This document shows positions 32,746-51,829 of a stretch of DNA of 64,000 nt, piece after piece. The position numbers were made by a program, and so were the translations under genes. Under the pieces are notes generated by a model. That model had not been told where the DNA came from. It saw only the letters and a list, made by a program, of their open reading frames with translations, and searched no databases. The stretch is from Streptosporangium sandarakinum (GTDB lineage Bacteria > Actinomycetota > Actinomycetes > Streptosporangiales > Streptosporangiaceae): the NCBI RefSeq assembly GCF_013409935.1, contig NZ_JACCCO010000001.1:2852001-2916000 (forward strand), read 5' to 3'. Numbering within the stretch: the first letter of the stretch is position 1; the number at the start of each line of letters is the position of its first letter.

Positions 32746-33759
32746 ATGACGGCGATGCGGATGGCGGGGATGGGGCTCGCGGTCGGGGCGGTGCTGACGC
32801 TGTGCACCGTCACAGGGCCGGCGCAGGCGGCCGAGCAAGGCTGGGACAGAACGGCGGGCTGCGCGGAGGCGCGGCCGGAGGTCACATCCATCAGCGGCTG
32901 GGTGTCGCCCAGCGCCTGCGCCTTCATCAAGCGGCAGATCAGGTTCGGCAAGGTCACCACCCCCGACCGGGTGGACGCCTACGTCGAAATGTGGTCCAAG
33001 GACGCGACGCTGTGGGAGCCGGCGAAGGCGAGCAAGCCGCTTCTCCAGGGTGAGGAGGCCATCAGGCAGGCGATCAGCGGATCGCTCGGCCTGGTCCCCG
33101 ACTTCCGCTTCCGCGGCACGCGCATCGCTGTGAACGGTCCCGCCGTGATGTTCGAAGCGCACAACGAGGCCACGATCAAGGGACACGAGGTCGACTACGC
33201 CGCGGTCTACCGGGTCCTGCTGACCGACGACGGCAAGGTCGTCCAGGGCCGCCGCTACTACGACCGGCACACCTGGTTCAAGCCGCTCGACCCCGAGCTG
33301 CCCGACCTGTTCGCCGGCGTCGCCGACGGCGGCGCCCCCGACCGGAGCCGCAGGCCCGTCCTCGCCCCCGACGAGCTCGTCGCCCGCGCCGAGGCATGGA
33401 ACGACGAGGACGCGGAGGCCCTGGTGGAACGGCTCACCGGCGCGCCGCTGTCCGCCCCCGGCCTGAACGGCACGCTGCGCACCACGCAGGGCAAGCTCGC
33501 CTACCTGAAGAGGTTCTTCGAACAGGTCAGCGATGTCCGGCTGCAGCCGGGCCAGACCGTCAAGGTCGACGGCGCGACGTACCTCGAATGGCACGGCACG
33601 CTCCTGCCCAAGGGCCAGGCCGACCCGGTCAGCTTCGGCGTCATCGAGCGCGTCGGCGACACCGGCGGCGTCTCGAACGACTGGACCCTGACCTTCGACC
33701 AGCTGCCGCTCGTCGCCGACGAAGCCAAGATCACCGAGCTGTACGGCAGGCTCAGGTAG
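32746..33759 (+). CDS. Secreted protein with two NTF2/SnoaL-like domains
   Basis: 337 residues with GAAAGGGGCAGGTC before the ATG. Signal peptide 1-28 (GMGLAVGAVLTLCTVTGPAQA, cut after AQA). First NTF2-like domain ~60-185 (VDAYVEMWSKDATLWEP...GEEAIRQAI), second ~205-335 (LVARAEAWNDEDAEALVERLTG...YLEWHGTLLP). These cone-shaped domains bind small ligands or act as isomerases/cyclases; no catalytic residues can be named. Converges and overlaps by 8 nt with the LuxR regulator gene. Its upstream region is duplicated before the membrane-protein gene at 36625, suggesting coordinated control. Confidence 0.75.
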   Translation: MTAMRMAGMGLAVGAVLTLCTVTGPAQAAEQGWDRTAGCAEARPEVTSISGWVSPSACAFIKRQIRFGKVTTPDRVDAYVEMWSKDATLWEPAKASKPLLQGEEAIRQAISGSLGLVPDFRFRGTRIAVNGPAVMFEAHNEATIKGHEVDYAAVYRVLLTDDGKVVQGRRYYDRHTWFKPLDPELPDLFAGVADGGAPDRSRRPVLAPDELVARAEAWNDEDAEALVERLTGAPLSAPGLNGTLRTTQGKLAYLKRFFEQVSDVRLQPGQTVKVDGATYLEWHGTLLPKGQADPVSFGVIERVGDTGGVSNDWTLTFDQLPLVADEAKITELYGRLR

Positions 33760-36430
33760 CGATCGCGGCCAGCTCCGCCCGCGAGGAGACCCCCAGCTTG
33801 GGGAAGGCCTTGTAGAGGTGGTAGCCGACGGTGCGCGGGCTGAGGTACAGCTGGGCCGCGATGTCGCGGTTGGACGCGCCCGCGGCGGCCAGCCGTACCA
33901 CCTGCCTCTCCTGCGTGGTGAGGACGCTGAGTGGATCGTCCGCCTGGCGCGGGGCCGCGGGGACGTCGCCGGTGGCGCGCAGCTCCGTGCGGGCACGCTC
34001 GGCCCACAGCGCCATGCCGAGCCGGTCGAAGGTCTCCAGGGCGGCGCGCAGCTGGGCGCGGGCTGCGGCGCGCTTGCGCGCCCGCCGCAGCCACTCGCCG
34101 TAGAGCAGCCGCGTACGGGCCTGCTCGTGCGGCTGCCCGCCCTGCTCGTGCGCCCGCATGGCCTCCTCGTACAGGCCCTCGTCGTTCTCGACGAGGGCGC
34201 GGCAGCGCAGTGCGACCGCGTCGGCGGACGGCACGCCGACGCCGGCCGCCCAGTTCAGGTAGTACGCCAGGGGCTCGCGCGCCCGCTCGGGCTCCCTGGC
34301 CCTGACGGCGGCCTCGATCCTGTCGGGGGCGAAGAAGAGCGCGTTGGCGGCCGAAATCCTCTCCAGGATCTCCAGCGACGCCTCTGGACGGCCCAGCGCG
34401 AGCTCCAGCCGGCCGAGCACGGCCATCGCGGCCGCCTCGGCCACGCGGAGCCCGCGCGTTCCCGCCTGTTCGAAGACGGCCGCGGCCGCCGTCCGGCACC
34501 CCTGCTCGTCGCCCAGCTCGCCGCGTGCCAAGGCGAGCGACGCGGTGAGCACGACCGCTCCGTTCCGCTGCCCCAGGTCGCCGACCATGGGGATGATCTC
34601 CTCCAGCTCGGTCACGGCCTCGCGATACCTGCCCATCAGCATCTGCGCCTGCAGCCGGGTCTCCACGGCGATGGCCAGCCAGCCGCCCATGTCGTGGGCC
34701 CTGCACTCGGCCTCGACGCGCGCCGCGGCGGCCTCGCCCTGACCGTAGCGTCCGATCGGCGCGCACAGCTGGGCCACGAAGAGCATGCCCGGCACCCGGA
34801 GCGCGGACAGATCCGGAGCGAGCACCAGCTCCCGCATGAGTGTGACCGCGTCCTTCAGGTCGCCGTTGACCAGTGCGGCCAGCCCGAGCGCGCCGCTCAC
34901 CAGCGGAGAGCCGATTTCGGGCAGGGTCCTGAGCAGCCTCGCCGCCCGCTCCGCCAGGCCCGGGTCACTGGCGTACCACGCGCAGCGCACCGCCTCCACG
35001 AGCAGGTAGGCCGCCCGCTCGGCGTCCAGCGGGGCGACCCGCTCCGCGCCGGCGATGATGAGCTCGCCGGCCGCGGCCGGGCTGCCCTGCTCGAACTCCC
35101 GATGGGCGCGCACCTGGGTCAGGTGGGCGAGGGCCGACGGGTCCTGGATCTCCTCGCTGGCCCGGTCGGCCAGCGAGCCCGCACGGGCCGGCTGGCCCGC
35201 GTCGCTGGCCGCCACGGCCGCCGCGGCCAGCCGTACCGACCGTTTGGCGGCGTCGGGGGTGACCTCCGCGGCCCGCTCGTAGGCCGCGGCCATGGCCGCA
35301 TAGCCGGAACGGGTGCGCGCCCGCTCCGCGGCCAGCTCCAGCTCGCGCGCCACGTCCTCGTCGGGCGTGGTCGTCGCCGCGGCCAGATGCCAGGCCCGGC
35401 GGTCGGCGTGCTCGTCGCCGTCGAGCACCCCGGCGAGCGCACGCCGTACGACCAGCCGCGAGGTCAACGGCATGTTCTGGTAGGCGGCGGCTCTGATGAG
35501 CGGGTGCCTGAAGGTCACCACGGCACCGTTCACCGTGACCAGCTTGGCCTGCTCCGCCGCCTCCAGGTCCGTCAGCTCGGCGGAGAAGGACTCCGCGGCG
35601 CGCAGCACGATGCCGAGGTCGCCCGTGTCGTCGGCGGCGAGCACCGCGAGCAGGGCCTGAGCCGTGTCGGGCAGCGCCCTGATCTGCTGCTGGAAGGCCT
35701 CCTGCACCCGGTTGGCGACCGGAATCGTGGTGAACGGGTTCAGCTGCCCGGCCTGCTGCTCCGCGGTGAGCGTGGACGGCAGCTCGATGAGCGCGAGGGG
35801 ATTGCCGCCCGCCTCGTCCAGGACGCGGTCACGCACCTTCGGCGCCAGATCCCGGGTCGACTCGGCCAGCAGCGCGATGGCGGCGTCGCGGTCCACACCG
35901 TCCAGCCACAGCTCGGGCAACCCCTGCGGGCGGAACTCCTCCCTGCCCGCGAACACCAGCGCGATGCCTTCCGCGTCCAGCCGCCGCGCCACGAACACCA
36001 GCGCGTCGATGGACGCCTGATCGAACCACTGCGCGTCGTCGATCAGGCAGAGCAGCGCCCCGTCGCCCGCGACCTCGGCCAGCAGGCTGAGCACGGCCAG
36101 CCCGACGAGGAACCGGTTCTCCGGAGCCGCCGCCCCCAGCCCCAGCGCGCCCTGCAGCGCCGCCGCCTGTGCCTCGGGCAGCATGTCGATCCGGTCGAGT
36201 TCGGAACGCAGGAGCAGATGCAGGGCGGCATACGGCAGCTCCGCCTCGGACTCGATGCCGACCCCGTGGAGCACCCGCACCCCCGCGGCCTGCTCCGTCA
36301 GGTGGCCGAGCAACGCGGTCTTCCCGATACCCGGCTGGCCGCGTACCACCAGCACACCACTGCGCCCGGACCGCGCGTTCGCCAGCAGCCGGTCCACCTG
36401 AGCCTGCTCCGCAGCCCGCCCATACAACAT
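33752..36430 (-). CDS. Large ATP-binding LuxR-family regulator (LAL type)
   Basis: 892 residues. P-loop GQPGIGKTAL (31-40), Walker B ALLCLIDDAQWFDQASIDAL, STAND-type helices (LPSTLTAEQQAGQL), long TPR-like middle, C-terminal LuxR HTH beginning LTTQERQVVRLAAAGASNRD with recognition helix PRTVGYHLYKAFPKLG. It lies between two genes carrying the same 57-bp upstream element, one of which (36533-36589) is in its own divergent promoter region, pointing to local regulation and autoregulation. The inducer is unknown. Confidence 0.93.
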   Translation of the reverse strand: MLYGRAAEQAQVDRLLANARSGRSGVLVVRGQPGIGKTALLGHLTEQAAGVRVLHGVGIESEAELPYAALHLLLRSELDRIDMLPEAQAAALQGALGLGAAAPENRFLVGLAVLSLLAEVAGDGALLCLIDDAQWFDQASIDALVFVARRLDAEGIALVFAGREEFRPQGLPELWLDGVDRDAAIALLAESTRDLAPKVRDRVLDEAGGNPLALIELPSTLTAEQQAGQLNPFTTIPVANRVQEAFQQQIRALPDTAQALLAVLAADDTGDLGIVLRAAESFSAELTDLEAAEQAKLVTVNGAVVTFRHPLIRAAAYQNMPLTSRLVVRRALAGVLDGDEHADRRAWHLAAATTTPDEDVARELELAAERARTRSGYAAMAAAYERAAEVTPDAAKRSVRLAAAAVAASDAGQPARAGSLADRASEEIQDPSALAHLTQVRAHREFEQGSPAAAGELIIAGAERVAPLDAERAAYLLVEAVRCAWYASDPGLAERAARLLRTLPEIGSPLVSGALGLAALVNGDLKDAVTLMRELVLAPDLSALRVPGMLFVAQLCAPIGRYGQGEAAAARVEAECRAHDMGGWLAIAVETRLQAQMLMGRYREAVTELEEIIPMVGDLGQRNGAVVLTASLALARGELGDEQGCRTAAAAVFEQAGTRGLRVAEAAAMAVLGRLELALGRPEASLEILERISAANALFFAPDRIEAAVRAREPERAREPLAYYLNWAAGVGVPSADAVALRCRALVENDEGLYEEAMRAHEQGGQPHEQARTRLLYGEWLRRARKRAAARAQLRAALETFDRLGMALWAERARTELRATGDVPAAPRQADDPLSVLTTQERQVVRLAAAGASNRDIAAQLYLSPRTVGYHLYKAFPKLGVSSRAELAAIAT

Positions 36431-39232: not shown

Positions 39233-39988
39233 TCACCGGACAGGCATCAGAGGAGCCGGTCGTCCCGGAGTGGGAGAGACGAGCAGGTCGTCGAGACCGG
39301 CTTCGGAGAAGGCGGCGTGCACGTCCGACTGGTTCTCGGTGAAGTGGGTCCAGCCCTCGACGTGGAGCGGCACGACGTACCGGGCTTTCAGCAGGCGCGC
39401 GGCGATCACCATGTCGGCGGCGTTCAGGGTGAGCCGCTCGTCGATCAGGGGTGTGCGGACGGCACCGCCGAACAGCAACGCGACATCGACGGCCGGGTAC
39501 CGCTCGGCTATGAGTTCCACGCACTCCAGCGAGGCGTTGTCCCCGCTGATGTAGACGGTGGGCAGCCCGTCGCCGGTGAGCACGAAGCCGGTGACCTGAC
39601 CGACGATGGGCTCGCATCCCGGCGGGCCGTGCAGGGCGGGAACGGCGGTGACGCGGACCCCGCCGACGTCGTGGTGCCGCCAGGGGTGCATCGGGGTGAC
39701 GCCGGTACGCTCCGCGGCCTCGGGAGTGCTCAGGGTCAGCGGCGCGGCGGACATCACCTGGCGCCCCAGCCTGTCCAGGTTGTCGGGATGCTGGTCATGG
39801 CTGAGCAGCACCAGATCCACCTGGCCGACGTCGGTGTGGGAGAGGGCCGGGCCGATGGTCTTGGTGAGCGTGAGCGGCCCGACGGGGTGATCTCCCGGCG
39901 GATCGAAGGTCGGATCGGTGAGGATCCGCAGCCCGCCGAGCTCCAGCAGGGCCGTCGGGCCGCCGATCGTGGTGATGGTGGGCTGCAT
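39233..39988 (-). CDS. MBL-fold metallohydrolase (UlaG-like)
   Basis: 251 residues. Begins TITTIGGPTALLELGGLRILTDPTFD, as in UlaG-like lactonases/hydrolases. Metal motif reads SHDQHPDNLDR, where the usual HxHxDH becomes H-D-Q-H-x-D-N, a common variant in this subgroup. Further ligands: His in VPALHGPPG, Asp in YISGDNASLE and His in VVPLHVEGW. Hydrolysis of a lactone, phosphoester or related bond is expected. The stop lies 48 nt from the convergent hydrolase gene. Start has no strong ribosome-binding site. Confidence 0.85.
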   Translation of the reverse strand: MQPTITTIGGPTALLELGGLRILTDPTFDPPGDHPVGPLTLTKTIGPALSHTDVGQVDLVLLSHDQHPDNLDRLGRQVMSAAPLTLSTPEAAERTGVTPMHPWRHHDVGGVRVTAVPALHGPPGCEPIVGQVTGFVLTGDGLPTVYISGDNASLECVELIAERYPAVDVALLFGGAVRTPLIDERLTLNAADMVIAARLLKARYVVPLHVEGWTHFTENQSDVHAAFSEAGLDDLLVSPTPGRPAPLMPVR

Positions 39989-40199
39989 GGGCGGCTCCGT
40001 TCGCCACGCTGTCGGGCATCGTCCGGATCACGCTAACCGAACGGGGCGCGGAACACCCCCCGATCGGGTGCACCACCTGGTGTTTCGCCCTTCCCGACCG
40101 GAAGGTCACCGAGGTCCCGCTCATCCCGGACACGCCGAACCCGTACCGATGACGATCGGGCGGTGCCCGCGTCCACGGGATCGGGCCGCGCGCCGGTCG

Positions 40200-40230
40200 G
40201 TCATGGTCGCCGTCCGCCGGCGACCATGAC
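40200..40230 (-). terminator. Terminator of the decarboxylase / AidA-like operon
   Basis: Perfect 13-bp stem GTCATGGTCGCCG / CGGCGACCATGAC with a TCCGC loop, 39 nt beyond the last stop of the minus-strand operon. Confidence 0.8.
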
Positions 40231-40268
40231 CTCCACCTTCACCGCACCGCGCGCGGCCCCGAAGGCCG

Positions 40269-40817
40269 TCAGACGGGCAGTACCCGCAGGGCGGGGTGGC
40301 GGACCGAGTTCAGATACAGCTTGTCGGTGCCGTGCTCCTTCTCCAGCTCCAGGACGAGCCGGTAGCGGTAGAGCCCCGGCCGGGCCTCGCTCATCACCGC
40401 CCCGGCCCAGTAGTAGTAGACGGCGGTGTACTGGTCGCGCATCCGGTCGGGAGCGCCGTAGACCTTGAGCTCGGTCATCATCCGTCGTTCGGCGACGTCC
40501 TCCTCGTCGCCCTTCTCGACGTCGAGGAAGACCAGATTGTTGATCTTCGGCATCGGAGGCCAGGTGCCGTCCGGACGGCGGTGCATGTCGATCGGGCGGA
40601 TGATCCAGTTGATCACCTGCCCCTGCTTGCAGACGGTCTCCAGATGGTCGGTGCCCTGCCCGACCCCGCCGACGCTGTTGTCCATCATGTAGAGGCAGCC
40701 GTCCAGAGACTTCGTCGCGGCGGCCCTCTCCATGTCGACGAGGGTCACCACGTTCAGCTGGACGGAGTTGAGCTGGCCGCGATCGGCGAAGTCCGTGGCC
40801 GCGTACGCCTGGGTCAT
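40269..40817 (-). CDS. AidA/PixA-like inclusion-body family protein, paralogue 4
   Basis: 182 residues from the ATG at 40817, overlapping the previous gene by 4 nt. N-terminal beta strand LNVVTLVDMERA, then the hallmark LDGCLYMMDNSVGG-VGQGT-DHLETVCKQG-QVINW, and a C-terminal EARPGLYRYRLVLELE strand pair. The D-N / G-x-G-T / G-x-x-I-x-W pattern is how AidA/PixA (inclusion-body) proteins read. Those are abundant beta-rich cytoplasmic proteins of unclear function, quorum-controlled in some proteobacteria. Longest middle loop of the four is Pro/Arg rich (RRPDGTWPPMPK). Last gene of the operon. Confidence 0.7.
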   Translation of the reverse strand: MTQAYAATDFADRGQLNSVQLNVVTLVDMERAAATKSLDGCLYMMDNSVGGVGQGTDHLETVCKQGQVINWIIRPIDMHRRPDGTWPPMPKINNLVFLDVEKGDEEDVAERRMMTELKVYGAPDRMRDQYTAVYYYWAGAVMSEARPGLYRYRLVLELEKEHGTDKLYLNSVRHPALRVLPV

Positions 40818-41272
40818 CGGCCTCCCCTTTCCTCGTCGGCGGGACCGGCCAGGGCCGGCCGGGCGGTGGGGGTGAACGGCGTGCTGACGGTGCCGAGCAG
40901 GAACGAGAGCCGGTACGGGACCGGTTCGGTGATGTCCTGCTTGACCTCGGCGGTCCAGAACACGATGTCGGTGCCGGGATACACCTTCCGCGTGGGCTCG
41001 GCGATCCGCGGGTCGATCTCGATGTCGATGAGGGCCACGTAGGTCTCGCACTCCAGCGGGAGCACGTTCCACAGCAGGGTGTCGCCCTTGCGCACCCGGC
41101 TGTGCAGCTCAGGGGTGCCGAAACCGGTGGACCCCACGGTCTTGTTGGTGTCGTAGAGATAGAGGTTGTCGTCCAGGTTCTCCGACGCCAGGGCGGCCAC
41201 GGGGTCGACCACCGCGGTGATCGTCACGGGCCGGGTGGGCCGGCGTTCGGACTGTCTGTTCCTCGGGGGCAT
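40814..41272 (-). CDS. AidA/PixA-like inclusion-body family protein, paralogue 3
   Basis: 152 residues, the shortest of the four. Basic N-terminus MPPRNRQSERRPTRP, then VTITAVVDPVAAL and the family core LDDNLYLYDTNKT-GSTGFGT-ELHSRVRKGDTLLW, followed by YVALIDIEIDP and EPVPYRLSFLLG. The tail is Pro/Ala rich. It is separated from paralogue 2 by 39 nt and overlaps paralogue 4 by 4 nt. Sequence identity among paralogues is low outside the core, so they are old duplications rather than a recent tandem array. Confidence 0.65.
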   Translation of the reverse strand: MPPRNRQSERRPTRPVTITAVVDPVAALASENLDDNLYLYDTNKTVGSTGFGTPELHSRVRKGDTLLWNVLPLECETYVALIDIEIDPRIAEPTRKVYPGTDIVFWTAEVKQDITEPVPYRLSFLLGTVSTPFTPTARPALAGPADEERGGR

Positions 41273-41311
41273 GCGGCTCCTCCGCTCGAAAATGCTCCGG
41301 CTCGGACCGGG

Positions 41312-42094
41312 TCAGCCTGCGGCCGGGACGGGCGGAAGGGGGAGCACGCCCAGCCCGGCGCCGGTGAACCCGTTGCGCTTCGGATCGTTGGTGATCTTGA
41401 GACTGGACCCGCAGGTCAGGTCCACGGACTCCCAGACCAGCTCGTCGTTCCGCTCGACCAGCTCGTGGAGCTGGACGTGCATCGTGTACGGGTAGACCCC
41501 GGGCCGGCTCGTGTCCACGGTCGCGGCCCAGTACCAGCCGTCGTAGATCATGTCGGGTGACCCGTACTGGGCCGGATACATGATCTTCTCGGCGACGGCC
41601 GGTCCGGTGATATCGGTGATCACCGGAGCCGGATAGTTGTACGCGCCGGAGTCACTCGTGGTCCTGCCGGTGACGTCCAGCAGCTTGGACTCGGTGAGAC
41701 CGCGCCCGCCGCCCGACTTGCGGGCGCGCTTGCCGACCCGCCGCTGCAACCGCTTGATGTCGGCGTCGCTCACACCGCCCTCGCCGTCGAGCGAGGCCAG
41801 TTCCCTCAGCGTGCGCCGGTCGTCGGCGCGTTCCTGCTCGGCCAGGTAGTTGCGCGGCACCGTCGGGGGGATCGCTCCCAGCACCGCGGGCAGCCAGTTC
41901 AGCACCTGCTCGGTCGCCTGCGACCCGTCGGAGAAATGGGTGCCGGGCACGATCGTCACCAGTTGCTCGGTGCCCACCCCGGCCGAGCCGAGGAACTTCA
42001 TGTTGTCGAACCAGTACGTGTTGCCGTCGAGCGATCGCGTCCGGAGCGCGTTCTCGACGTCGAAGAGCACGATGATCCCGTGTTGCTGGGCCAT
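41312..42094 (-). CDS. AidA/PixA-like inclusion-body family protein, paralogue 2 (long form)
   Basis: 260 residues from the ATG at 42094. Core: IIVLFDVENALRTRSLDGNTYWFDN, GSAGVGTEQLVTIVPGT, QVLNWLP. It differs by a ~95-residue insertion after QVLNWLPAVLG (about 70-165), which is charged and helical (YLAEQERADDRRTLRELASLDG, KRLQRRVGKRARKSGGGRG). Then the C-terminal strands SRPGVYPYTMHVQLHEL and VDLTCGSSLKI. The insertion could be a regulatory or interaction module. The separation of 25 nt from paralogue 1 indicates one transcript. Confidence 0.65.
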   Translation of the reverse strand: MAQQHGIIVLFDVENALRTRSLDGNTYWFDNMKFLGSAGVGTEQLVTIVPGTHFSDGSQATEQVLNWLPAVLGAIPPTVPRNYLAEQERADDRRTLRELASLDGEGGVSDADIKRLQRRVGKRARKSGGGRGLTESKLLDVTGRTTSDSGAYNYPAPVITDITGPAVAEKIMYPAQYGSPDMIYDGWYWAATVDTSRPGVYPYTMHVQLHELVERNDELVWESVDLTCGSSLKITNDPKRNGFTGAGLGVLPLPPVPAAG

Positions 42095-42119
42095 GAGACC
42101 GCCTTTCGCAGAACGTGGC

Positions 42120-42620
42120 TCACACGCGCAGCAGCGCGGGCGAGTCGATGTGCAGCACGCTGTTGGATCCCTCGTGGAGCTTGAGGGAGAGCCGGTACCG
42201 GTACGGGACACCGGGCGTCATGTCGTAGGGCACGATGCCCTCCCACACCAGCAGGTCGTGGTTCTCGTAGCCGCCGGAACCCATGGCGTCGCCCTCCGTC
42301 CCGGGCACGGCGCCGGGTGCCGGGAAGGGGGCGGAGTCCACCGGATGCGGCGGCACGGTCTGGCCGGCCGGGGGCGGGGCGGTCACGCCGGACAGGAACT
42401 CGATGGACTCGATCTCGACCGGAGTCTGCACGTCCACGTGGATGGGCGTCCACTGGATGACCTGTCCCGGGACCACCGCCGTGACGAGGTCGGGGGTCCC
42501 CTGGTGCATGCTTCCCGCCGAACTGTCGTCGACCAGCGAGAGGTTGCCGTTGTGCAGCGTCCGGTCGGACAGCGCCCCGACCGCGTCGACCATCACGACG
42601 ATGCTGACCCTGTGTTTCAT
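42120..42620 (-). CDS. AidA/PixA-like inclusion-body family protein, paralogue 1
   Basis: 166 residues from the ATG at 42620, chosen over 42644 because AAGGGAGG ends 4 nt before it. Core: VSIVVMVDAVGALSDRTLHNG, NLSLVDDSSAG, HQGTPDLVTAVVPGQVIQW, closing MTPGVPYRYRLSLKLHEG and LHIDSPALLRV. A Pro/Gly/Ala loop (~88-115) separates the halves. First of four tandem paralogues downstream of the PaaK-like ligase gene (48 nt gap). Confidence 0.7.
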   Translation of the reverse strand: MKHRVSIVVMVDAVGALSDRTLHNGNLSLVDDSSAGSMHQGTPDLVTAVVPGQVIQWTPIHVDVQTPVEIESIEFLSGVTAPPPAGQTVPPHPVDSAPFPAPGAVPGTEGDAMGSGGYENHDLLVWEGIVPYDMTPGVPYRYRLSLKLHEGSNSVLHIDSPALLRV

Positions 42621-42668
42621 CGTTCCTCCCTTGTCGTGTGTCATTCGGGCGTACGGGCCACCACGCGC

Positions 42669-44210
42669 TCAGCCCCGATCCCTGACCAGCGGTGTCTTGC
42701 CGACGGTGGTCCGCTCGATCTGTGGTGAGGAGCGCGGCACGAACACCAGCCGGAACCCGTATCCGGTCTGCTCGATGGCCGCAGCGTTGGCCTCCCGGTC
42801 GTTGAAGAGCGACAGGGAGCTCGGCAGTGCGTGGACGAACAGATTCCGCATCCCGTTCGGGCCGAGGGCGTGCTCGACGGCCGCGGCCGTGCCCTCGGCA
42901 TCGTCCACCGCCGCGAGCAGGGTGAGGGTCCGGTCCTCACGGTGGTTGTGGAACTGGACCTCGTGCGCGACCAGGTCCAGGTCGACGCCGGTCGTCGAGC
43001 GCAGCCGCCCGCGCAGGGCCGCGTAGGCCAGCGTCGCCGAGTACTGGCTGTCGTTGAGGTGCAGCACGTCGGCGGTGCGCCCGGCGAACTCGAACCGCTC
43101 GGTGCGCAGCCCGGGTCCGTTCAGTGCGGGGCGGCGGATCATCCGATCGCCGAGCTTGAGCCGGAGCAGCGGCGTCTCGCCGGCGTGCAGCCGGGTGACG
43201 ACCAGCTCGCCCTCCTCGCCTTCGGCGACGGCACGGCCGTGCTCGTCCACGATCTCCACCAGGTGCAGCCCCGGCACGGCGGACAGCGCCGGCGAGGTGT
43301 GGTCGAGCTGGAGCCCGACGCACTCGGCCTGGGTCGCGGCGAAGTAGCTGAGGATCGACACGTTGGGGAAGAACGCCTGCAGCTCGTCGCGCTTGCGCTG
43401 CGGCAGGGAGCCGCTGCCGTACATGGCGACCCGGAAGCTCGCCCTGGCCTGCGGGGACAGCCCCGCGCCCAGCTCGGGCAGGAGCGCGATGCCGGCGGTG
43501 ATGCCCATCAGCGCCTTGTGGCCGGGGTAGGAGAACATGTGCTCCAGCACCGGCGCGCTCACCGGTCCCGCGCCGATGTAGTTGACCCCCGGGACCTGGG
43601 ACAGGACGCCGCCGACCATGGTCCCGCTGCTCCACATCTGGTAGTCGGCCAAGGTGGTGAACAGCCAGCGCGGCGCGGGGCCGCGCAGGTAGCGGCCGAG
43701 CTGGTAGGCCCCCATGAACGCCCCGGCGATGCGGTAGGTGTCGCGCAGCTCCCGCAGGGAGTACACGATCTCCAGGGGCATGCCGTCACCGGTGCCGCCG
43801 CTGGCCACCACCTCGAATCCGCCGTGTTCGAGCGGCACGACCATCCCGGCCCGGGCGCCCATGAACATGTCCCGCTGCACGGTCTTGTCCGAGAGGGGGA
43901 TCCGCTCCCACTCGGACATGTCGGCGGGGGCGCTGCGGATCCCGAAGTAGTGCAGCCGCTCGCGCCACAGCGGGTTGAGCAGGGCGACGCCGACGAGCTG
44001 CTGAAGCCGGCGGAACACCAGCGCGTTCTGGAGGTCGAGCGGGGACTCGCAGTACGGGGTTCCGGTGAGCCGCCCGCACTCCTCCAGTTTCTCCGCGAAC
44101 GACGGCAGCCGGATGACGTCGTCCACCGAGCGGGGCCGCAGTTCCTCCTCGGGGATCAGCCGTGCCGCCAGCTCCGCCGGGGCGGCGACGTCCGAACTCG
44201 TCATGGTCAT
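42669..44210 (-). CDS. PaaK-like adenylate-forming enzyme
   Basis: 513 residues from the ATG at 44210, which overlaps the upstream decarboxylase stop (ATGA); GGGAG precedes it. Landmarks of the phenylacetate-CoA ligase/F390-synthetase group: WERIPLSDKTVQRDMF, nucleotide loop ASGGTGDGMPLEI, YFAATQAECVG (the YGxTE-like adenine loop), EGEEGELVVTRL, and RLKLGDRM. The C-terminal mobile domain runs to TTVGKTPLV, with the likely catalytic Lys. It should activate a carboxylic acid as acyl-AMP. Whether the acceptor is CoA or an amine is unknown. The pairing with an amino-acid decarboxylase is unusual. Confidence 0.8.
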   Translation of the reverse strand: MTMTSSDVAAPAELAARLIPEEELRPRSVDDVIRLPSFAEKLEECGRLTGTPYCESPLDLQNALVFRRLQQLVGVALLNPLWRERLHYFGIRSAPADMSEWERIPLSDKTVQRDMFMGARAGMVVPLEHGGFEVVASGGTGDGMPLEIVYSLRELRDTYRIAGAFMGAYQLGRYLRGPAPRWLFTTLADYQMWSSGTMVGGVLSQVPGVNYIGAGPVSAPVLEHMFSYPGHKALMGITAGIALLPELGAGLSPQARASFRVAMYGSGSLPQRKRDELQAFFPNVSILSYFAATQAECVGLQLDHTSPALSAVPGLHLVEIVDEHGRAVAEGEEGELVVTRLHAGETPLLRLKLGDRMIRRPALNGPGLRTERFEFAGRTADVLHLNDSQYSATLAYAALRGRLRSTTGVDLDLVAHEVQFHNHREDRTLTLLAAVDDAEGTAAAVEHALGPNGMRNLFVHALPSSLSLFNDREANAAAIEQTGYGFRLVFVPRSSPQIERTTVGKTPLVRDRG

Positions 44211-45781
44211 GAATGACTCCCGTTCCGTTGGCCGGGCCGGACCGCGACGCTCTCGCGCAGCACCCGTTGCCCGATGTCCCTGATCTCGGCGATGAGCATG
44301 GTCAGGTGGTCGGCGTCGATCAGGTGGTTCATCACCACCACGCGCAGCGCCGCCACCCCGTCGATGTCGACCTTGGAGATGAAGAAGCGCCCGCCGCCCC
44401 GGATCCGGTTGCGGATCTCCAGCTGCAGGCGGTGTACGGTCGCCGGCTCCAGGCCGTCCGGCCGGTACCGGAAGCACAGGATGTTGGACTCCGGCTCGTG
44501 TGCCACCGCGAAGTCCGGCTCGGCGGCGAGCATCCGGTACGCCTGCCGGGCCACCGCGCACAGCCGGTCGATCTTCTGTGAGAACAGCGCCGGGCCGTAG
44601 ACCGACCAGACCGTCCAGAGCGGCATGATCATCGGGCGTTTCGTGCACTCGAGGTTCTTGTCCGCGCTGTCGTAGGCGCTGTAGACGTCCGGTTCCTCGT
44701 CGAAGACGTAACTGGCGCGCTGCCGGAACGCACCGCGCGCCGTCGCGCCGTCGCGGTAGAAGAGCAGCGTGCACGGCGCCGGCATGAACAGCATCTTGTG
44801 GGCGTCCCAGGTCAGCGAGTCAGCCTGCTCGATGCCGCGCAGCCTGCCCCGGTGCCGGTCCGACAGCAGCAGGCTCGCCCCGTGCGCCCCGTCCACATGG
44901 AGCCAGAGCCCGTACCGGCGTGCCACGGCCGCGAGCTCCTCCAGCGGGTCGAAGGCGCCCATCGACGTGGTCCCGGCCGAGGCGACCAGGCAGAACGGTC
45001 GCAGACCGCGCCGGCGCGCCTCGTCCAGCACCGGGCCGGCCGTATCGGGACGGATCCGCCCGCCCCGGTCGACCGGGAGCCGGACGAGCTGCCGTTCCCC
45101 GATGCCGAGCACCCCGGCCGCCCGGGTCACGCTGTAGTGGGCCTCCTCGCTGATCGCGATGGCCGGGGAACCCGGCACACTGCCGGCTCCACGCGTCCAG
45201 ATCTGCGGGAAGGCGCGGTTGCGGGCGGCCAGCAGCGCGGTCAGGTTGGCCAGGGAGCCCCCCGAGGTCGTCACCATGGCGAACCGGTCGCGGTCCCAGC
45301 CGATGAACCGGTTGAGCTCCTCGGCCATGAGCCGCTCGGCGACGTTGGGGAGTTGCCCGGCCTCGTAGAAGGAGGAGGGCTGGTTGACCACCGAGCCGAC
45401 CAGGTCGATAAGGCCGGCCAGCGGCACCACGCCGGAGAACTGCCGTCCCATGTAACCGGGTGAGTAGACCGGGATGCCGGTCCCCGTGTACAGGTCGACG
45501 ATCTGGTTCACCCGGTCGGCGTCGAAGTCGGCGATGCGCTGCCGTTCCGGGGTCATCAGCGCCCGCGCGGCCTTCAGCAGCACCGCCGGATCGAGGAGGT
45601 CGAGTCCCCGGACCGACCGGTCGCCCAGATACGTCGTCAGGCGGCTGACGATGCCCGCGGCGCCGTCGTGGAAACGTCCGGGGTCGAAGGCCGCGGTGAG
45701 ACCCGGCGTGGGTGACCGGGAGCCTTCGCCGGTCGCCGGCTCCGGAAGGGGGCCCTGGCCATCGGAAAGTGAACTCGTCAC
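44207..45781 (-). CDS. PLP-dependent group II amino-acid decarboxylase
   Basis: 524 residues from the GTG at 45781 (GGAG 9 nt upstream); the frame stays open to 46000, so the start is uncertain. Fold-type I landmarks: VTTSGGSLANLTALLAAR, HYSVTRAAGVLGIG, VASAGTTSMGAFDPLEELA, the HVDGAHGASLL Asp that pairs with the PLP ring nitrogen, and DAHKMLFMPAPC with the Schiff-base Lys. Closest in feel to aspartate/glutamate/diaminobutyrate decarboxylases. Product would be an amine. First gene of a six-gene operon with a PaaK-like ligase and four AidA-like proteins. Confidence 0.88.
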   Translation of the reverse strand: MTSSLSDGQGPLPEPATGEGSRSPTPGLTAAFDPGRFHDGAAGIVSRLTTYLGDRSVRGLDLLDPAVLLKAARALMTPERQRIADFDADRVNQIVDLYTGTGIPVYSPGYMGRQFSGVVPLAGLIDLVGSVVNQPSSFYEAGQLPNVAERLMAEELNRFIGWDRDRFAMVTTSGGSLANLTALLAARNRAFPQIWTRGAGSVPGSPAIAISEEAHYSVTRAAGVLGIGERQLVRLPVDRGGRIRPDTAGPVLDEARRRGLRPFCLVASAGTTSMGAFDPLEELAAVARRYGLWLHVDGAHGASLLLSDRHRGRLRGIEQADSLTWDAHKMLFMPAPCTLLFYRDGATARGAFRQRASYVFDEEPDVYSAYDSADKNLECTKRPMIMPLWTVWSVYGPALFSQKIDRLCAVARQAYRMLAAEPDFAVAHEPESNILCFRYRPDGLEPATVHRLQLEIRNRIRGGGRFFISKVDIDGVAALRVVVMNHLIDADHLTMLIAEIRDIGQRVLRESVAVRPGQRNGSHS

Positions 45782-49344: not shown

Positions 49345-50016
49345 ATGACCGAAAGCGGTGTGAGGGGCGCCAAGCCCCAGAGGGTACGGCCCGGCGGACG
49401 GGGCGCCAGAGTCCCCGGATGGATGGTGCCCACCGGCCTGATCATGCTCAGCGCGATTCCGGTGGTCGCCGGTGCGCTGCGTCTGGGGGAACTGGCAGGT
49501 GGCGCGGCGGTCACCCCCGCCAACGCGCGATTCTTCGCGACACCGCTACCCGTGGTGTCACACGTCATCGGAGCGTCGCTCTACGGCATCGTGGGCGCCT
49601 TCCAGTTCGCGAAGAGGTTCCGTCGCCGGAGGCCGGCCTGGCATCGCATGACAGGACGGATTCTCGTCGTATGCGGACTCGTCGCCGCACTCTCCGGCCT
49701 GTGGATGACCGTGTTCCATCCTCGCCCGGAAGGCGACGGCGATCTCCTCGCGGCGTTCCGGCTCGTGTTCGGCACGGCGATGGCGGTCTCCCTCGTGCTC
49801 GGCTTCGCCGCCGTCCGGCGGAGAGATTTCCGCCGTCACCACGACTGGATGATCCGCGCCTACGCGATCGGCGTGGCCGCCGGCACCCAGGCGTTCACCC
49901 AGCTCCCCTGGATGCTCCTCGTCGGCCCCCTCGGCGAGACCCCCAGAGCCCTGCTCGTGACCGCCGGATGGGTCATCAACCTCGCCGTGGCCGAGTGGAT
50001 CATCCGCAGACCCTAG
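49345..50016 (+). CDS. DUF2306-type membrane protein
   Basis: 223 residues from the ATG at 49345 (an ATG at 49309 is also possible). Basic N-terminus, then five to six hydrophobic helices (WMVPTGLIMLSAIPVVAGALRLG; HVIGASLYGIVGAFQFAKRFR; MTGRILVVCGLVAALSGLWMT; LVFGTAMAVSLVLGFAAVRRR). Conserved His in PLPVVSHVIGAS, HRMTGR and RRHHDWMIRAYAIG fits the DUF2306 pattern. Function unknown. Its stop overlaps the response-regulator stop by 4 nt, convergent. Confidence 0.8.
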   Translation: MTESGVRGAKPQRVRPGGRGARVPGWMVPTGLIMLSAIPVVAGALRLGELAGGAAVTPANARFFATPLPVVSHVIGASLYGIVGAFQFAKRFRRRRPAWHRMTGRILVVCGLVAALSGLWMTVFHPRPEGDGDLLAAFRLVFGTAMAVSLVLGFAAVRRRDFRRHHDWMIRAYAIGVAAGTQAFTQLPWMLLVGPLGETPRALLVTAGWVINLAVAEWIIRRP

Positions 50017-50669
50017 TTCCTGACCCGATGGGTCTCGTACGCCCACATGGCGATCTCCACCCGGTTCCGGGCGCCGAGCTTGGCCATCAGGCTGGCGATA
50101 TGGGTCTTGACGGTGCTGAGTGAGATGTGAAGTTCGTCAGCGATCTCACTGTTGGTGCGCCCCCGGGCCACCGTGACGAGGATCTGCTCCTCACGCTCGG
50201 TGAGCGCCTCGATGGGACGGACCGGCGGCGCGGCGGGCCCGGCGTGCGCGAAGGCGGTGAGCAGGCGGGCGGTGACGCTCGGAGCGATGAGGGCGTCACC
50301 GGCCGCCGCGGCGTGAACGGCCTGGGAGAGCAGCTCGGCGCCGGCGTTCTTCAGCAGGAACCCCCGGGCCCCCGCGCGCAGCGCCGCGTAGACGTACTCG
50401 TCGAGGTCGAAGGTGGTGATGACCACGACGGCGAGTGGGTCGTCGACGGTGGGCCCGGCGAGCATCCGGGTGGCCTCGATGCCGTTGAGCACGGGCATCC
50501 GGATGTCGAAAAGACACACGTCCGGTCGGAGCCGCCGGGCGAGTTCGACCGCTCGCCGCCCGTCGGCGGCCTCGCCGACCACCTCGATCCCCGGCTGCGC
50601 ATCGAGGATCATCACCAGTCCGGTACGGACGATCTCCTGGTCGTCGGCGACCAGCACCCGGACGCTCAT
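50013..50669 (-). CDS. NarL/LuxR-type response regulator
   Basis: 218 residues from the ATG at 50669, overlapping the kinase gene by 4 nt. Receiver: VADDQEIVRTGL acidic pocket, phospho-acceptor Asp55 in CLFDIRMP, Thr in VITTFD and Lys in LLKNAG. LuxR HTH at about 150-212 (LTEREEQILVTVARGRTNSE, recognition helix LSTVKTHIASLMAKLG). Output of the adjacent DesK-like kinase. Regulon unknown; a neighbouring DUF2306 or dehydrogenase gene could be a target. Confidence 0.95.
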   Translation of the reverse strand: MSVRVLVADDQEIVRTGLVMILDAQPGIEVVGEAADGRRAVELARRLRPDVCLFDIRMPVLNGIEATRMLAGPTVDDPLAVVVITTFDLDEYVYAALRAGARGFLLKNAGAELLSQAVHAAAAGDALIAPSVTARLLTAFAHAGPAAPPVRPIEALTEREEQILVTVARGRTNSEIADELHISLSTVKTHIASLMAKLGARNRVEIAMWAYETHRVRN

Positions 50670-51829
50670 CCGGCCACCCCGGTACGCGGCAGCACGGCGG
50701 TGACGCTCCATCCCCGGTCGGGATCGGGGCCCGCCGCACAGGTGCCCCCGAGAAGATCAGCCCGTTCGATCATGCCGATGATCCCGTAACCGGGTGTCCC
50801 CGCGGGGCGAACGGGATCACCGTCATCGCTCACGCGCAGACGGACCGACGTGTCGTCGGCGCTGACCCGGACCAGGACGCGGGTGGCGTGCCGCGCGTGG
50901 CGCCGGGCGTTGGTGACCGACTCCTGGGCGAGGCGGTAGATCGCGGCCTCGACGGAAGGGGAGAGGCCGGCGGTGTCGCCCTCGATCTCCACCTGGACGG
51001 ACGGGCCGGATCGTCCCGGGCTTTCGAGCTGGGAGAGATCGGCGATGCTCCGCCCAGGCGCCAGGTCCGCGGGCGCGTTCCGGCGGAGGACGTGAACCAT
51101 GGCGCGCATCTCGGCGAGCGCCTGGGCCGCCTCAGCCTCGATCACCCGCAACGCCTCGGTGGCGGCGTCCGGCCGCGACGCCGCCGTCGCCAACCCCGCC
51201 TGTGCCCGGATCGCCATCGCCGAGACGTGATGGGCGACGGTGTCATGCAGGTCTCGGGCCAGTTGCTCACGTTCGAGCAGTTTGACCTGGTCAAGCTCCC
51301 GCGTCCGCGCCCTCGTCCGATAGCGGAACGCCGTTCCCACGGCGATCGCCGCGAGCACGACGGCGAAGGCGGCGGCGGTGTCGGCTGGACCGGAATAGTC
51401 CACGACCACGGAGAACGTGGCTTTGACGAGAATGATCGCCAACCCGATGATCGCCTCTCGCCCGGACCCCCACCGGAACAGCGCATAAGGCAGGAGAAGC
51501 AGATAAATCATGGTGTTGGACTCGGGCGAGACGCCACCCGTCAGCACCTGGGCCACACCCGACACGCCGAACGCGATCGCGACCATCAGCAGCGGCCGGG
51601 TGCGGCGCCACAACAAGGTGGGCACCAACCCGACCGCGAGGCTCACCGAGATGACCCGTGAGGGCATGTCCGGCCGCACCACTCCTTCGAGCAGCGCGAC
51701 CGGCAGCAACACCCCTACGAGCACCCAGTCTCGCCACACCCGCCGTGGCGCGTCGGGGGAACGGGGCTCATGCCACACGGAGCGAATAAGGCCGTGCACG
51801 AAGTCATGGTACGAGAGCCCCCACCACAA
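50666..51829 (-). CDS. Sensor histidine kinase (HisKA_3, DesK/NarX-like)
   Basis: 387 residues. Five or six membrane helices between ~33 and 170 with little extracytoplasmic sequence, so probably an intramembrane sensor. HisKA_3 motif EREQLARDLHDTVAHHVSAM with phosphorylated His195; HATPase segment AIYRLAQESVTNARRHARHA (N-box) and GYGIIGMIERADLLGG (G-box). Co-transcribed with the response regulator. Signal unknown; membrane or envelope stress is a usual class for this type. Confidence 0.94.
   Translation of the reverse strand: MWWGLSYHDFVHGLIRSVWHEPRSPDAPRRVWRDWVLVGVLLPVALLEGVVRPDMPSRVISVSLAVGLVPTLLWRRTRPLLMVAIAFGVSGVAQVLTGGVSPESNTMIYLLLLPYALFRWGSGREAIIGLAIILVKATFSVVVDYSGPADTAAAFAVVLAAIAVGTAFRYRTRARTRELDQVKLLEREQLARDLHDTVAHHVSAMAIRAQAGLATAASRPDAATEALRVIEAEAAQALAEMRAMVHVLRRNAPADLAPGRSIADLSQLESPGRSGPSVQVEIEGDTAGLSPSVEAAIYRLAQESVTNARRHARHATRVLVRVSADDTSVRLRVSDDGDPVRPAGTPGYGIIGMIERADLLGGTCAAGPDPDRGWSVTAVLPRTGVAG

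Follow-up and report, generated by a model that had tools for sequence, protein, structure and literature searches.

The PixA, AidA, MakC and MakD proteins have been known for years, some of them with crystal structures. Here we compare with these described proteins a locus of Streptosporangium sandarakinum, located within a 64-kb window of its 7.65-Mb, four-contig genome (the window is the whole stretch of DNA analyzed, and all coordinates of the locus refer to it). On the minus strand of this window (40269-45781), a cassette of six genes encodes a group II pyridoxal 5'-phosphate (PLP)-dependent decarboxylase (hereinafter DEC), a putative PaaK-like adenylate-forming ligase (LIG) and four PixA/MakC-like paralogs (PIX1 to PIX4).

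In the accessible parts of the literature, PixA, AidA, MakC and MakD are still called poorly understood or of unknown function (PMC9060813, PMC11484084). MakC and MakD (NF049870; structures 8rqy and 6tct) are two paralogs encoded side by side with a tripartite toxin in the makDCBAE operon of Vibrio cholerae; as far as the accessible text goes, both are dimers in the crystals, stay in the cell and are not secreted. Strand beta5 of MakD carries Cys59, and strands beta5-1-2-3 form a head-to-tail dimer; a MakC-MakD heterodimer has been proposed as well, with the authors' caution that it is a prediction only (PMC11484084). The PIX proteins resemble MakC and MakD in fold and are nearest to them by sequence, but form four paralogous lines instead of two, score below the NF049870 cut-off, and have a decarboxylase and a ligase, not a toxin, as their operon partners.

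The second relevant group is the PixA/AidA family of inclusion-body proteins (PF12306; structures 4lzk and 4pib, and the relative 4q52), which the two modeled PIX proteins (PIX2 and PIX4) resemble in fold by Foldseek comparison. In cells at the onset of stationary phase, PixA is described as an inclusion-body protein (PMC9060813); inclusion formation and a quorum linkage have been reported for proteobacterial PixA/AidA relatives, and two family members can adjoin in Burkholderia and Ralstonia (PMC9060813, PMC10143992). Relatives of AidA and PixB occur in Actinobacteria (PMC9060813), aidA genes are found beside LuxR receptors (PMC10143992), and an AidA-annotated protein is strongly raised on chitin in Jeongeupia (PMC10455584). 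Because the PIX proteins are nearest to MakC/MakD and not to PF12306, the inclusion and quorum traits need not carry over to the cassette. The Photorhabdus pcfABCDEF clumping operon has six genes, as the cassette does, and is quorum-controlled (PMC5407808, PMC4235431); the two are likened by description only, the pcf gene products being unnamed in the accessible text, and we treat this as a lead. No description of a decarboxylase-ligase-PixA combination was found in the literature searched, which covered few subscription papers, in line with an earlier reading of this DNA from its sequence alone (hereinafter the sequence-only reading), which knew of no described system of this kind.

A conserved six-gene cassette

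The six genes of the cassette are as follows:

44207..45781, minus strand: DEC, group II PLP-dependent decarboxylase, 524 amino acids (aa), GTG start; PF00282
42669..44210, minus strand: LIG, putative PaaK-like adenylate-forming ligase, 511-513 aa; weak PaaK/ANL matches, conserved motifs
42120..42620, minus strand: PIX1 (P0003), PixA/MakC-like paralog 1; NF049870 39.5 bits, below the cut-off
41312..42094, minus strand: PIX2 (P0004), PixA/MakC-like paralog 2; NF049870 36.1 bits, AlphaFold2 model and Foldseek
40814..41272, minus strand: PIX3 (P0005), PixA/MakC-like paralog 3; NF049870 58.5 bits, matches in the Protein Data Bank (PDB)
40269..40817, minus strand: PIX4 (P0006), PixA/MakC-like paralog 4; NF049870 52.7 bits, AlphaFold2 model and Foldseek

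Two junctions overlap by 4 nucleotides (nt), namely DEC/LIG (LIG starts at 44210, and the last base of the DEC stop codon is 44207) and PIX3/PIX4 (40814-40817), and the remaining intergenic gaps are 48, 25 and 39 nt, so that the six-gene operon, with its short overlaps and gaps, stands as drawn in the sequence-only reading.

Genome contigs were scanned with two ligase peptides, LADYQMW and EIVYSLRE, and the resulting 71 loci were read with iterated profiles of DEC, LIG and PIX. Since DEC and PIX are not part of the scan patterns, their presence at these loci is not built in; because peptide patterns sample near kin, 71 is a lower bound, and layouts with divergent ligases could be missed. The order DEC-LIG-PIX1-PIX2-PIX3-PIX4 is kept on one strand in 70 of the 71 loci, the exception (L109) ending inside LIG at a contig end. 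Among these 70, one gene is inserted between LIG and PIX1 in three (L081, L082 and L084), and two Tenacibaculum loci (L100, 5268-11494, and L104, 5262-11494) carry the DEC-LIG pair twice in tandem, followed by a single PIX set; DEC and LIG therefore duplicate as a pair. The contig of L088 begins within DEC. Two PIX genes, PIX1 of L074 (11525-12132) and PIX2 of L108 (12107-12896), are each split between two frames, reflecting either a frameshift or an assembly error.

Within the family of the window, 17 of 200 genomes encode LIG (E<=1e-10), and the same 17 encode PIX4 (E<=0.001); all PIX matches among the matches listed adjoin the ligase, within the cassette. The cassette is present in 7 of the 11 same-genus genomes listed, and all six genes follow in order at each of the 16 family loci read in detail, a set that is not independent of the 71 scan loci because the species partly overlap (for example, G005 and L039). 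Across the phylum, LIG was detected at E<=1e-20 only in the window's own genome among 396 genomes. The gene order in 70 of 71 and 16 of 16 loci is beyond chance, and the arrangement is not peculiar to one strain, a possibility that would have undercut the sequence-only reading. The cassette is a discrete six-gene module, present in several phyla and on plasmids, the parts of which occur together. We reject an origin as chance neighbors on the grounds of the fixed order and of the identical presence of LIG and PIX4 in the 200 family genomes.

Four lines of PixA/MakC-like proteins

None of the four PIX proteins matches any Pfam family at E<=1, PF12306 included. With the NCBIfam MakCD model NF049870, P0003 to P0006 score 39.5, 36.1, 58.5 and 52.7 bits, all below the cut-off of 110. 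In PDB searches, PIX3 matches 8rqy (E 5e-12), an entry named 'Inclusion body protein' in the match table but carrying the title of the MakC/MakD paper, and the MakD structure 6tct (E 1.7e-5). A PF12306 search of the window's own genome gave no match, with little weight given that the control also gave no signal; no PIX matches outside the cassette were detected in this genome at E<=1. The closest relatives of the PIX proteins in sequence are MakC/MakD rather than PF12306 members.

The AlphaFold2 models of PIX4 and PIX2, each from a 43-row alignment (mean predicted local distance difference test scores of 82.6 and 84.4, respectively), place both proteins in the PixA fold. At E<=0.001, the PIX4 model has 12 Foldseek matches, namely MakD, MakC, PixA (4lzk and 4pib) and the Chitinophaga protein 4q52, and the PIX2 model has 10, namely MakD, MakC, the 4lzk PixA and 4q52; both retrieve MakD and MakC ahead of PixA. 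The PIX4 model matches the PixA-family structures (4lzk, 4pib and 4q52) with E 1.5e-6 to 7.6e-5 at 8-12% sequence identity. Thus, the AidA/PixA assignment made in the sequence-only reading is right at the level of the fold for the two modeled proteins of the four, whereas at the level of sequence profiles neither PF12306 nor the NF049870 cut-off bears it out. The PIX2 model also weakly resembles SO1698, a Shewanella aspartic peptidase (3njm, E 1.3e-3).

PIX2 is longer than the other three paralogs by 78-108 aa, and PIX4 is the most conserved, with a mean pairwise identity of 0.56 compared to 0.46-0.48 for PIX1-3. The four paralogs share a small common core (P0006 numbering): only D28, the aspartate preceding the first helix (110 of 116 rows), D46 (113), L59, W71 (115), W137 (114) and Y152 (113) are conserved in over 105 of the 116 rows, and part of this core is also present in MakC/MakD. 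Near the shared first tryptophan, each paralog has invariant residues of its own, all in 69 of 69 sequences: D63 and Q65 in PIX1, E74 and E76 in PIX3, N66 in PIX2 and N70 in PIX4. Two further features of PIX4 are the near-invariant C63 and a Q-L-N motif at the N-terminus. MakD Cys59 aligns three residues after the shared tryptophan, and the paralog-specific residues may, judging from this alignment, shape the interface of a hetero-oligomer.

The paralogs keep their identities across the loci. For each of the 276 PIX sequences from the window and the 68 loci with exactly four matches (L074, L108 and L109 were excluded), the best match in another locus was almost always at the same position: 4546, 4692, 4691 and 4655 of 4692 comparisons for PIX1, PIX2, PIX3 and PIX4, respectively. 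An IQ-TREE phylogeny of 29 PIX sets recovers a single clade for each of PIX2, PIX3 and PIX4, with support of 100, 100 and 99, respectively, in the Shimodaira-Hasegawa-like approximate likelihood ratio test (SH-aLRT). We conclude that the divergence of the four lines preceded the spread of the cassette; they are positional orthologs across phyla and are non-interchangeable.

The decarboxylase and the ligase

DEC belongs to the group II PLP-dependent decarboxylases, as proposed in the sequence-only reading: the PF00282 profile gives 194.4 bits against a cut-off of 27. Its closest PDB structures are those of glutamate decarboxylases 1 and 2, of GADL1, an acidic amino acid decarboxylase, and of the cysteine sulfinate decarboxylase CSAD. 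No NCBIfam equivalog cut-off was reached by DEC, the scores being far below for all matched models. Homology to the glutamate, cysteine sulfinate and aspartate decarboxylases of PF00282 (GAD67, CSAD, GADL1 and PanP) extends over most of the length, and the PLP-lysine, the stacking histidine, the aspartate and the C-terminal arginine are all kept; the roles of these residues we take to be those in the known group II decarboxylases. K329 (the PLP-lysine) and R480 are invariant in 74 of 74 DEC rows, and R113-Q114-F115, H215, T272, D297, A299 and H300 are present in 73, the remaining row being cut there. Unlike the enzymes of the glutamate decarboxylase (GAD) type, DEC has an invariant R113 beside Q114, and, in place of the HVDAAW of glutamate decarboxylase 1, its motif reads HVDGAH or HVDAAH, H300 being invariant. 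Nor is the loop tyrosine of these enzymes kept: the position aligned with the catalytic tyrosine of GAD67 is occupied in the 74 rows by phenylalanine (26), leucine (25), tyrosine (19), methionine (2) and valine (2). In one locus (L036, in genome G131), the DEC stretch translated from a tblastn match contains one stop codon.

LIG is a much more distant member of its superfamily. Alone, the window LIG (P0002) scores 17.5 bits with PF00501 (the ANL superfamily), under the gathering score of 29.9, and only 33.9 bits with FlxY (cut-off 520) and 18.2 bits with the PaaK equivalog TIGR02155 (cut-off 646.3). The best PDB match of LIG is a phenylacetate-CoA ligase, and the LIG family profile matches 4r1l with E 1.3e-13 (53.5 bits). 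The adenylation motifs are recognizable and, as in PaaK and FlxY, include what we take to be the ANL superfamily signatures, down to the C-terminal lysine: an SGGT..G phosphate loop, R348, GD352-353, GR375-376, D379 and GK502-503 (the C-terminal GK) are invariant in all 73 LIG rows (the cut-off LIG of L109 is excluded), and the YFAATQAE motif is invariant except at A289 (71 rows) and T291 (70 rows). The differences from PaaK and FlxY are the scores far under the cut-offs and the phosphate loop, which is altered to SGGT. The PaaK-like label of the sequence-only reading agrees with the motifs and the best PDB match, whereas the PF00501 and PaaK profile scores do not reach their cut-offs; as a PaaK-like, ANL-type ligase, LIG is recognized only through weak profile matches. 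The closest named relative of the window LIG is that of S. pseudovulgare (98%). Given that the key active-site residues of DEC and LIG are invariant, both enzymes appear to be active.

Taxonomic spread and possible mobility

Isolates that carry the cassette belong to Actinomycetota, Pseudomonadota, Bacteroidota and Acidobacteriota, and Chloroflexota and Aminicenantes are represented by metagenome-assembled genomes (MAGs). Outside Actinomycetota, named isolates with the cassette include Andreprevotia, Rhodopseudomonas, Sphingomonas, Azospirillum, Cereibacter, Bradyrhizobium, Insolitispirillum, Ensifer, Saccharicrinis, Filimonas, Tenacibaculum and Granulicella. A tree of LIG from 68 loci and the window, built with a quick method, has two deep sides parted at an SH-aLRT support of 100, with phyla mixed on each. 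One side contains single representatives of Acidobacteriota and Chloroflexota, one Actinomycetota MAG and six Pseudomonadota. The window and the Aminicenantes MAG fall on the other side, together with 45 Actinomycetota, seven Bacteroidota and six Pseudomonadota. Actinomycetota require two changes and Pseudomonadota four on this tree, with the tool's own caution regarding long branches, mixed bins and paralogs; because more than one change is needed for two phyla, the tree suggests horizontal transfer of the cassette between lineages.

The flanks of the cassette vary even within the family: in a comparison of 18-kb stretches of 16 loci, the window genes at 33.7-39.2 kb, apart from a hydrolase gene discussed below, have homologs only in L022, the closest relative. 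LIG was found in seven records of a plasmid collection, six of them rhizobial; the seventh, from Nonomuraea gerenzanensis, has a length of 11.85 Mb, the size of a chromosome. The cassette is carried by pS15H of Bradyrhizobium elkanii from soybean nodules, which is typed as conjugative (L140, NZ_CP126037.1), and by a plasmid of Sinorhizobium alkalisoli (L141, NZ_CP034911.1); transposase genes are found near the cassette on rhizobial plasmids, including the latter. In both of these annotated plasmid loci, LIG and the four PIX proteins, that is, five of the six gene products, are annotated as 'hypothetical protein'. Profiling of three of the seven records confirmed all six genes along with an isochorismatase-like gene. 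A search of 50,697 phage records with LIG gave no match at E<=1e-10.

Genomic neighborhood

Immediately behind PIX4, the window contains two further features, and isochorismatase-like genes are found near the cassette in other loci:

40199..40231, minus strand: perfect inverted repeat 3' of PIX4, fold z-score -4.16
39233..39988, minus strand: metal-dependent hydrolase of the metallo-beta-lactamase (MBL) fold behind PIX4, facultative neighbor; PF12706
L081, 15142-15738; L103, 14079-14624; L090, 13961-14506: isochorismatase-like genes, with 10 further loci

The inverted repeat, with 14-bp arms and a 5-nt loop, begins 37 nt past the PIX4 stop codon and folds far better than shuffled sequences (0 of 200 shuffles equal it). 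Because it lacks a T tract, it is not listed in the T-run terminator scan, which returned a single site, on the other strand inside PIX3 (the shuffles average 2.1). As for the terminator named in the sequence-only reading, the inverted repeat is a probable T-tract-less one.

The MBL-fold hydrolase was searched for in 16 genomes, 12 with the cassette and four without. Copies at 78-100% identity were found in eight of them, all carrying the cassette and each with the copy beside it; one copy (in G129) has an internal stop. No close copy was detected in the four other cassette genomes or in the four cassette-free genomes searched, and G170 has a 56% relative located elsewhere. In 13 of the 71 loci, from both Actinomycetota and Pseudomonadota, a cysteine hydrolase of the isochorismatase family is encoded no more than 1.5 kb from the cassette, in four different layouts (downstream on the same strand in six, downstream on the opposite strand in four, upstream on the same strand in two and upstream on the opposite strand in one). 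PF00857 was confirmed in the three proteins profiled, and among 15 aligned proteins one lysine and one aspartate are kept in all 15 and one cysteine in 14. A class I/II aminotransferase is encoded between LIG and PIX1 in 3 of the 71 loci. In L096, a profiled DHA2-type pump of the major facilitator superfamily (MFS) is encoded upstream of the cassette, and L098 has an apparently similar MFS frame upstream, judged by the start of its sequence.

Approximately 4 kb from the cassette on either side, the window encodes proteins with LuxR-type domains, namely a large AAA/LuxR-type (GerE) regulator (33755-36430, minus strand) and a response regulator (50016-50711, minus strand). Among the other flank clusters, an ATP-binding-cassette-like one is present in 17 loci and two more in 14 and 13 loci; many of the rest stem from five related Streptomyces loci. 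PADLOC defense models searched against the six cassette proteins gave a single match, of P0001 to SspA (E 0.0098, 13.2 bits), which is of no use as an indication of an anti-phage defense role.

Functional prediction and alternatives

Taken together, the composition and conservation of the cassette lead us to a tentative prediction, which we hold as possible although somewhat short of even: DEC and LIG would make and activate a small amino acid-derived product, with the four PIX proteins as their obligate hetero-oligomeric partner. The sequence-only reading had likewise conjectured that an adenylated acid, together with the decarboxylation product of an amino acid, may yield a small molecule for the AidA-like proteins to bind, store or protect. 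DEC would decarboxylate an amino acid to the amine, most likely an acidic one given that it is a GAD/CSAD-like enzyme with an extra invariant arginine, and LIG would activate a carboxylate as the adenylate and pass it to an amine or a thiol. The four PixA-fold proteins would form a dedicated cytosolic hetero-oligomer that binds the product or an intermediate and holds, matures or delivers it, being a working partner of the enzymes rather than a bystander. The precursor or the product might be adapted by a facultative hydrolase, either isochorismatase-like or of the MBL fold, and, where a lineage has one, as few do, by an aminotransferase or efflux pump. We regard as rather doubtful the further-reaching formulation that the module is a self-contained metabolic machine, which consists of two enzymes and an obligate assembly of four PixA-fold proteins, would capture, compartmentalize or complete an otherwise unstable amino acid-derived product, and would travel between phyla as a single unit.

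Several points weigh against this prediction. The loop tyrosine is kept in only 19 of the 74 DEC rows (the window has Y370), so that DEC cannot be taken for granted as a simple decarboxylase; LIG is remote from all structurally solved ligases, which makes thioester or amide formation a guess. We know of no ligand of PixA-family proteins, and the proposed substrate, product, complex and phenotype are all inferred. The isochorismatase-like gene and the aminotransferase are near the cassette in only 13 and 3 of the 71 loci, respectively. PIX1 is not one clade in either the FastTree or the IQ-TREE phylogeny, and the pairing of PIX1 with PIX3 and of PIX2 with PIX4 as sisters, a FastTree split (0.83-0.87), was not recovered by IQ-TREE. 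The agreement of the pairwise distance matrices across the six proteins (correlations of 0.87-0.97, 68 loci), which speaks for the prediction, would also arise for any jointly inherited genes and is no evidence of contact.

Among the alternatives, an unlikely one is that the PIX proteins co-assemble into an inclusion or lattice, as Xenorhabdus PixA does, with DEC and LIG as cargo, to form a small enzymatic organelle. A mixed lattice would call for just such a set of four co-inherited PIX lines in a constant order, and the precedents cited above, the stationary-phase inclusion bodies of PixA (PMC9060813) and the intracellular dimers of MakC and MakD, fit this scheme. Nevertheless, the PIX2 and PIX4 models look like single-domain, mainly-beta proteins, and MakC/MakD, the nearest relatives by sequence, come with no mention of inclusions in the accessible text.

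The association of the nearest solved relatives, MakC and MakD, with the MakABE toxin raises the prospect that the PIX proteins are MakC/MakD-like helpers in an anti-predator or toxin system, the small molecule being the deterrent; AidA is indeed needed for the virulence of Burkholderia to nematodes (PMC9060813, accessible part). We consider this quite unlikely: no pore-forming-toxin domain was found among the 10 Pfam-scanned neighbors in the window (one of which has no family), which sets the locus apart from a MakABE-type alpha-pore-forming-toxin neighborhood, and no such toxin appears by gene name in the two annotated plasmid loci.

A similarly low probability attaches to the PIX proteins being tailoring enzymes, with the polar residues D63/Q65 of PIX1 and E74/E76 of PIX3 as catalytic ones. 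The invariance of these residues within each paralog and the resemblance of the PIX2 model to SO1698 are what such enzymes might show. Yet these residues are on or next to the MakC/MakD dimer strand, so that a role in the interface is equally likely, and the SO1698 match is weak and absent among the best 50 matches listed for P0006. To our knowledge, no catalytic activity is on record for PixA proteins.

Equally concerned with the PIX residues is the very unlikely scheme in which LIG and DEC make a small group and attach it to at least one PIX protein. Both enzymes are obligately linked to the four PIX proteins, and C63 and the Q-L-N motif of PIX4 are candidate features for such a modification; but the core common to all paralogs consists of the six residues listed above, partly shared with MakC/MakD, and thus offers no obvious common acceptor, and LIG and DEC resemble small-molecule enzymes. 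Finally, that the cassette joins two unrelated transcription neighbors, an amine/acyl metabolic pair (which DEC-LIG alone could be, as the Tenacibaculum duplication illustrates) and a PixA cluster sharing its promoter, is extremely improbable considering the single order of six genes in at least four phyla, the identical presence of LIG and PIX4 in the 200 family genomes, and the restriction of LIG to the window's own genome in the phylum-wide search.

Implications

The same gene order in distant bacteria and on plasmids makes the cassette look like a self-contained, undescribed molecular system, and its occurrence in at least four phyla as well as on plasmids from root-nodule bacteria implies a useful, shared trait. 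Four PixA-fold proteins are here locked to two assayable enzymes in culturable Streptomyces, rhizobia and Streptosporangium, so that the function of the PixA fold becomes directly testable. If the cassette is a self-contained metabolic machine of the kind formulated above, this would be the first biochemical role for the PixA/AidA/MakC fold.

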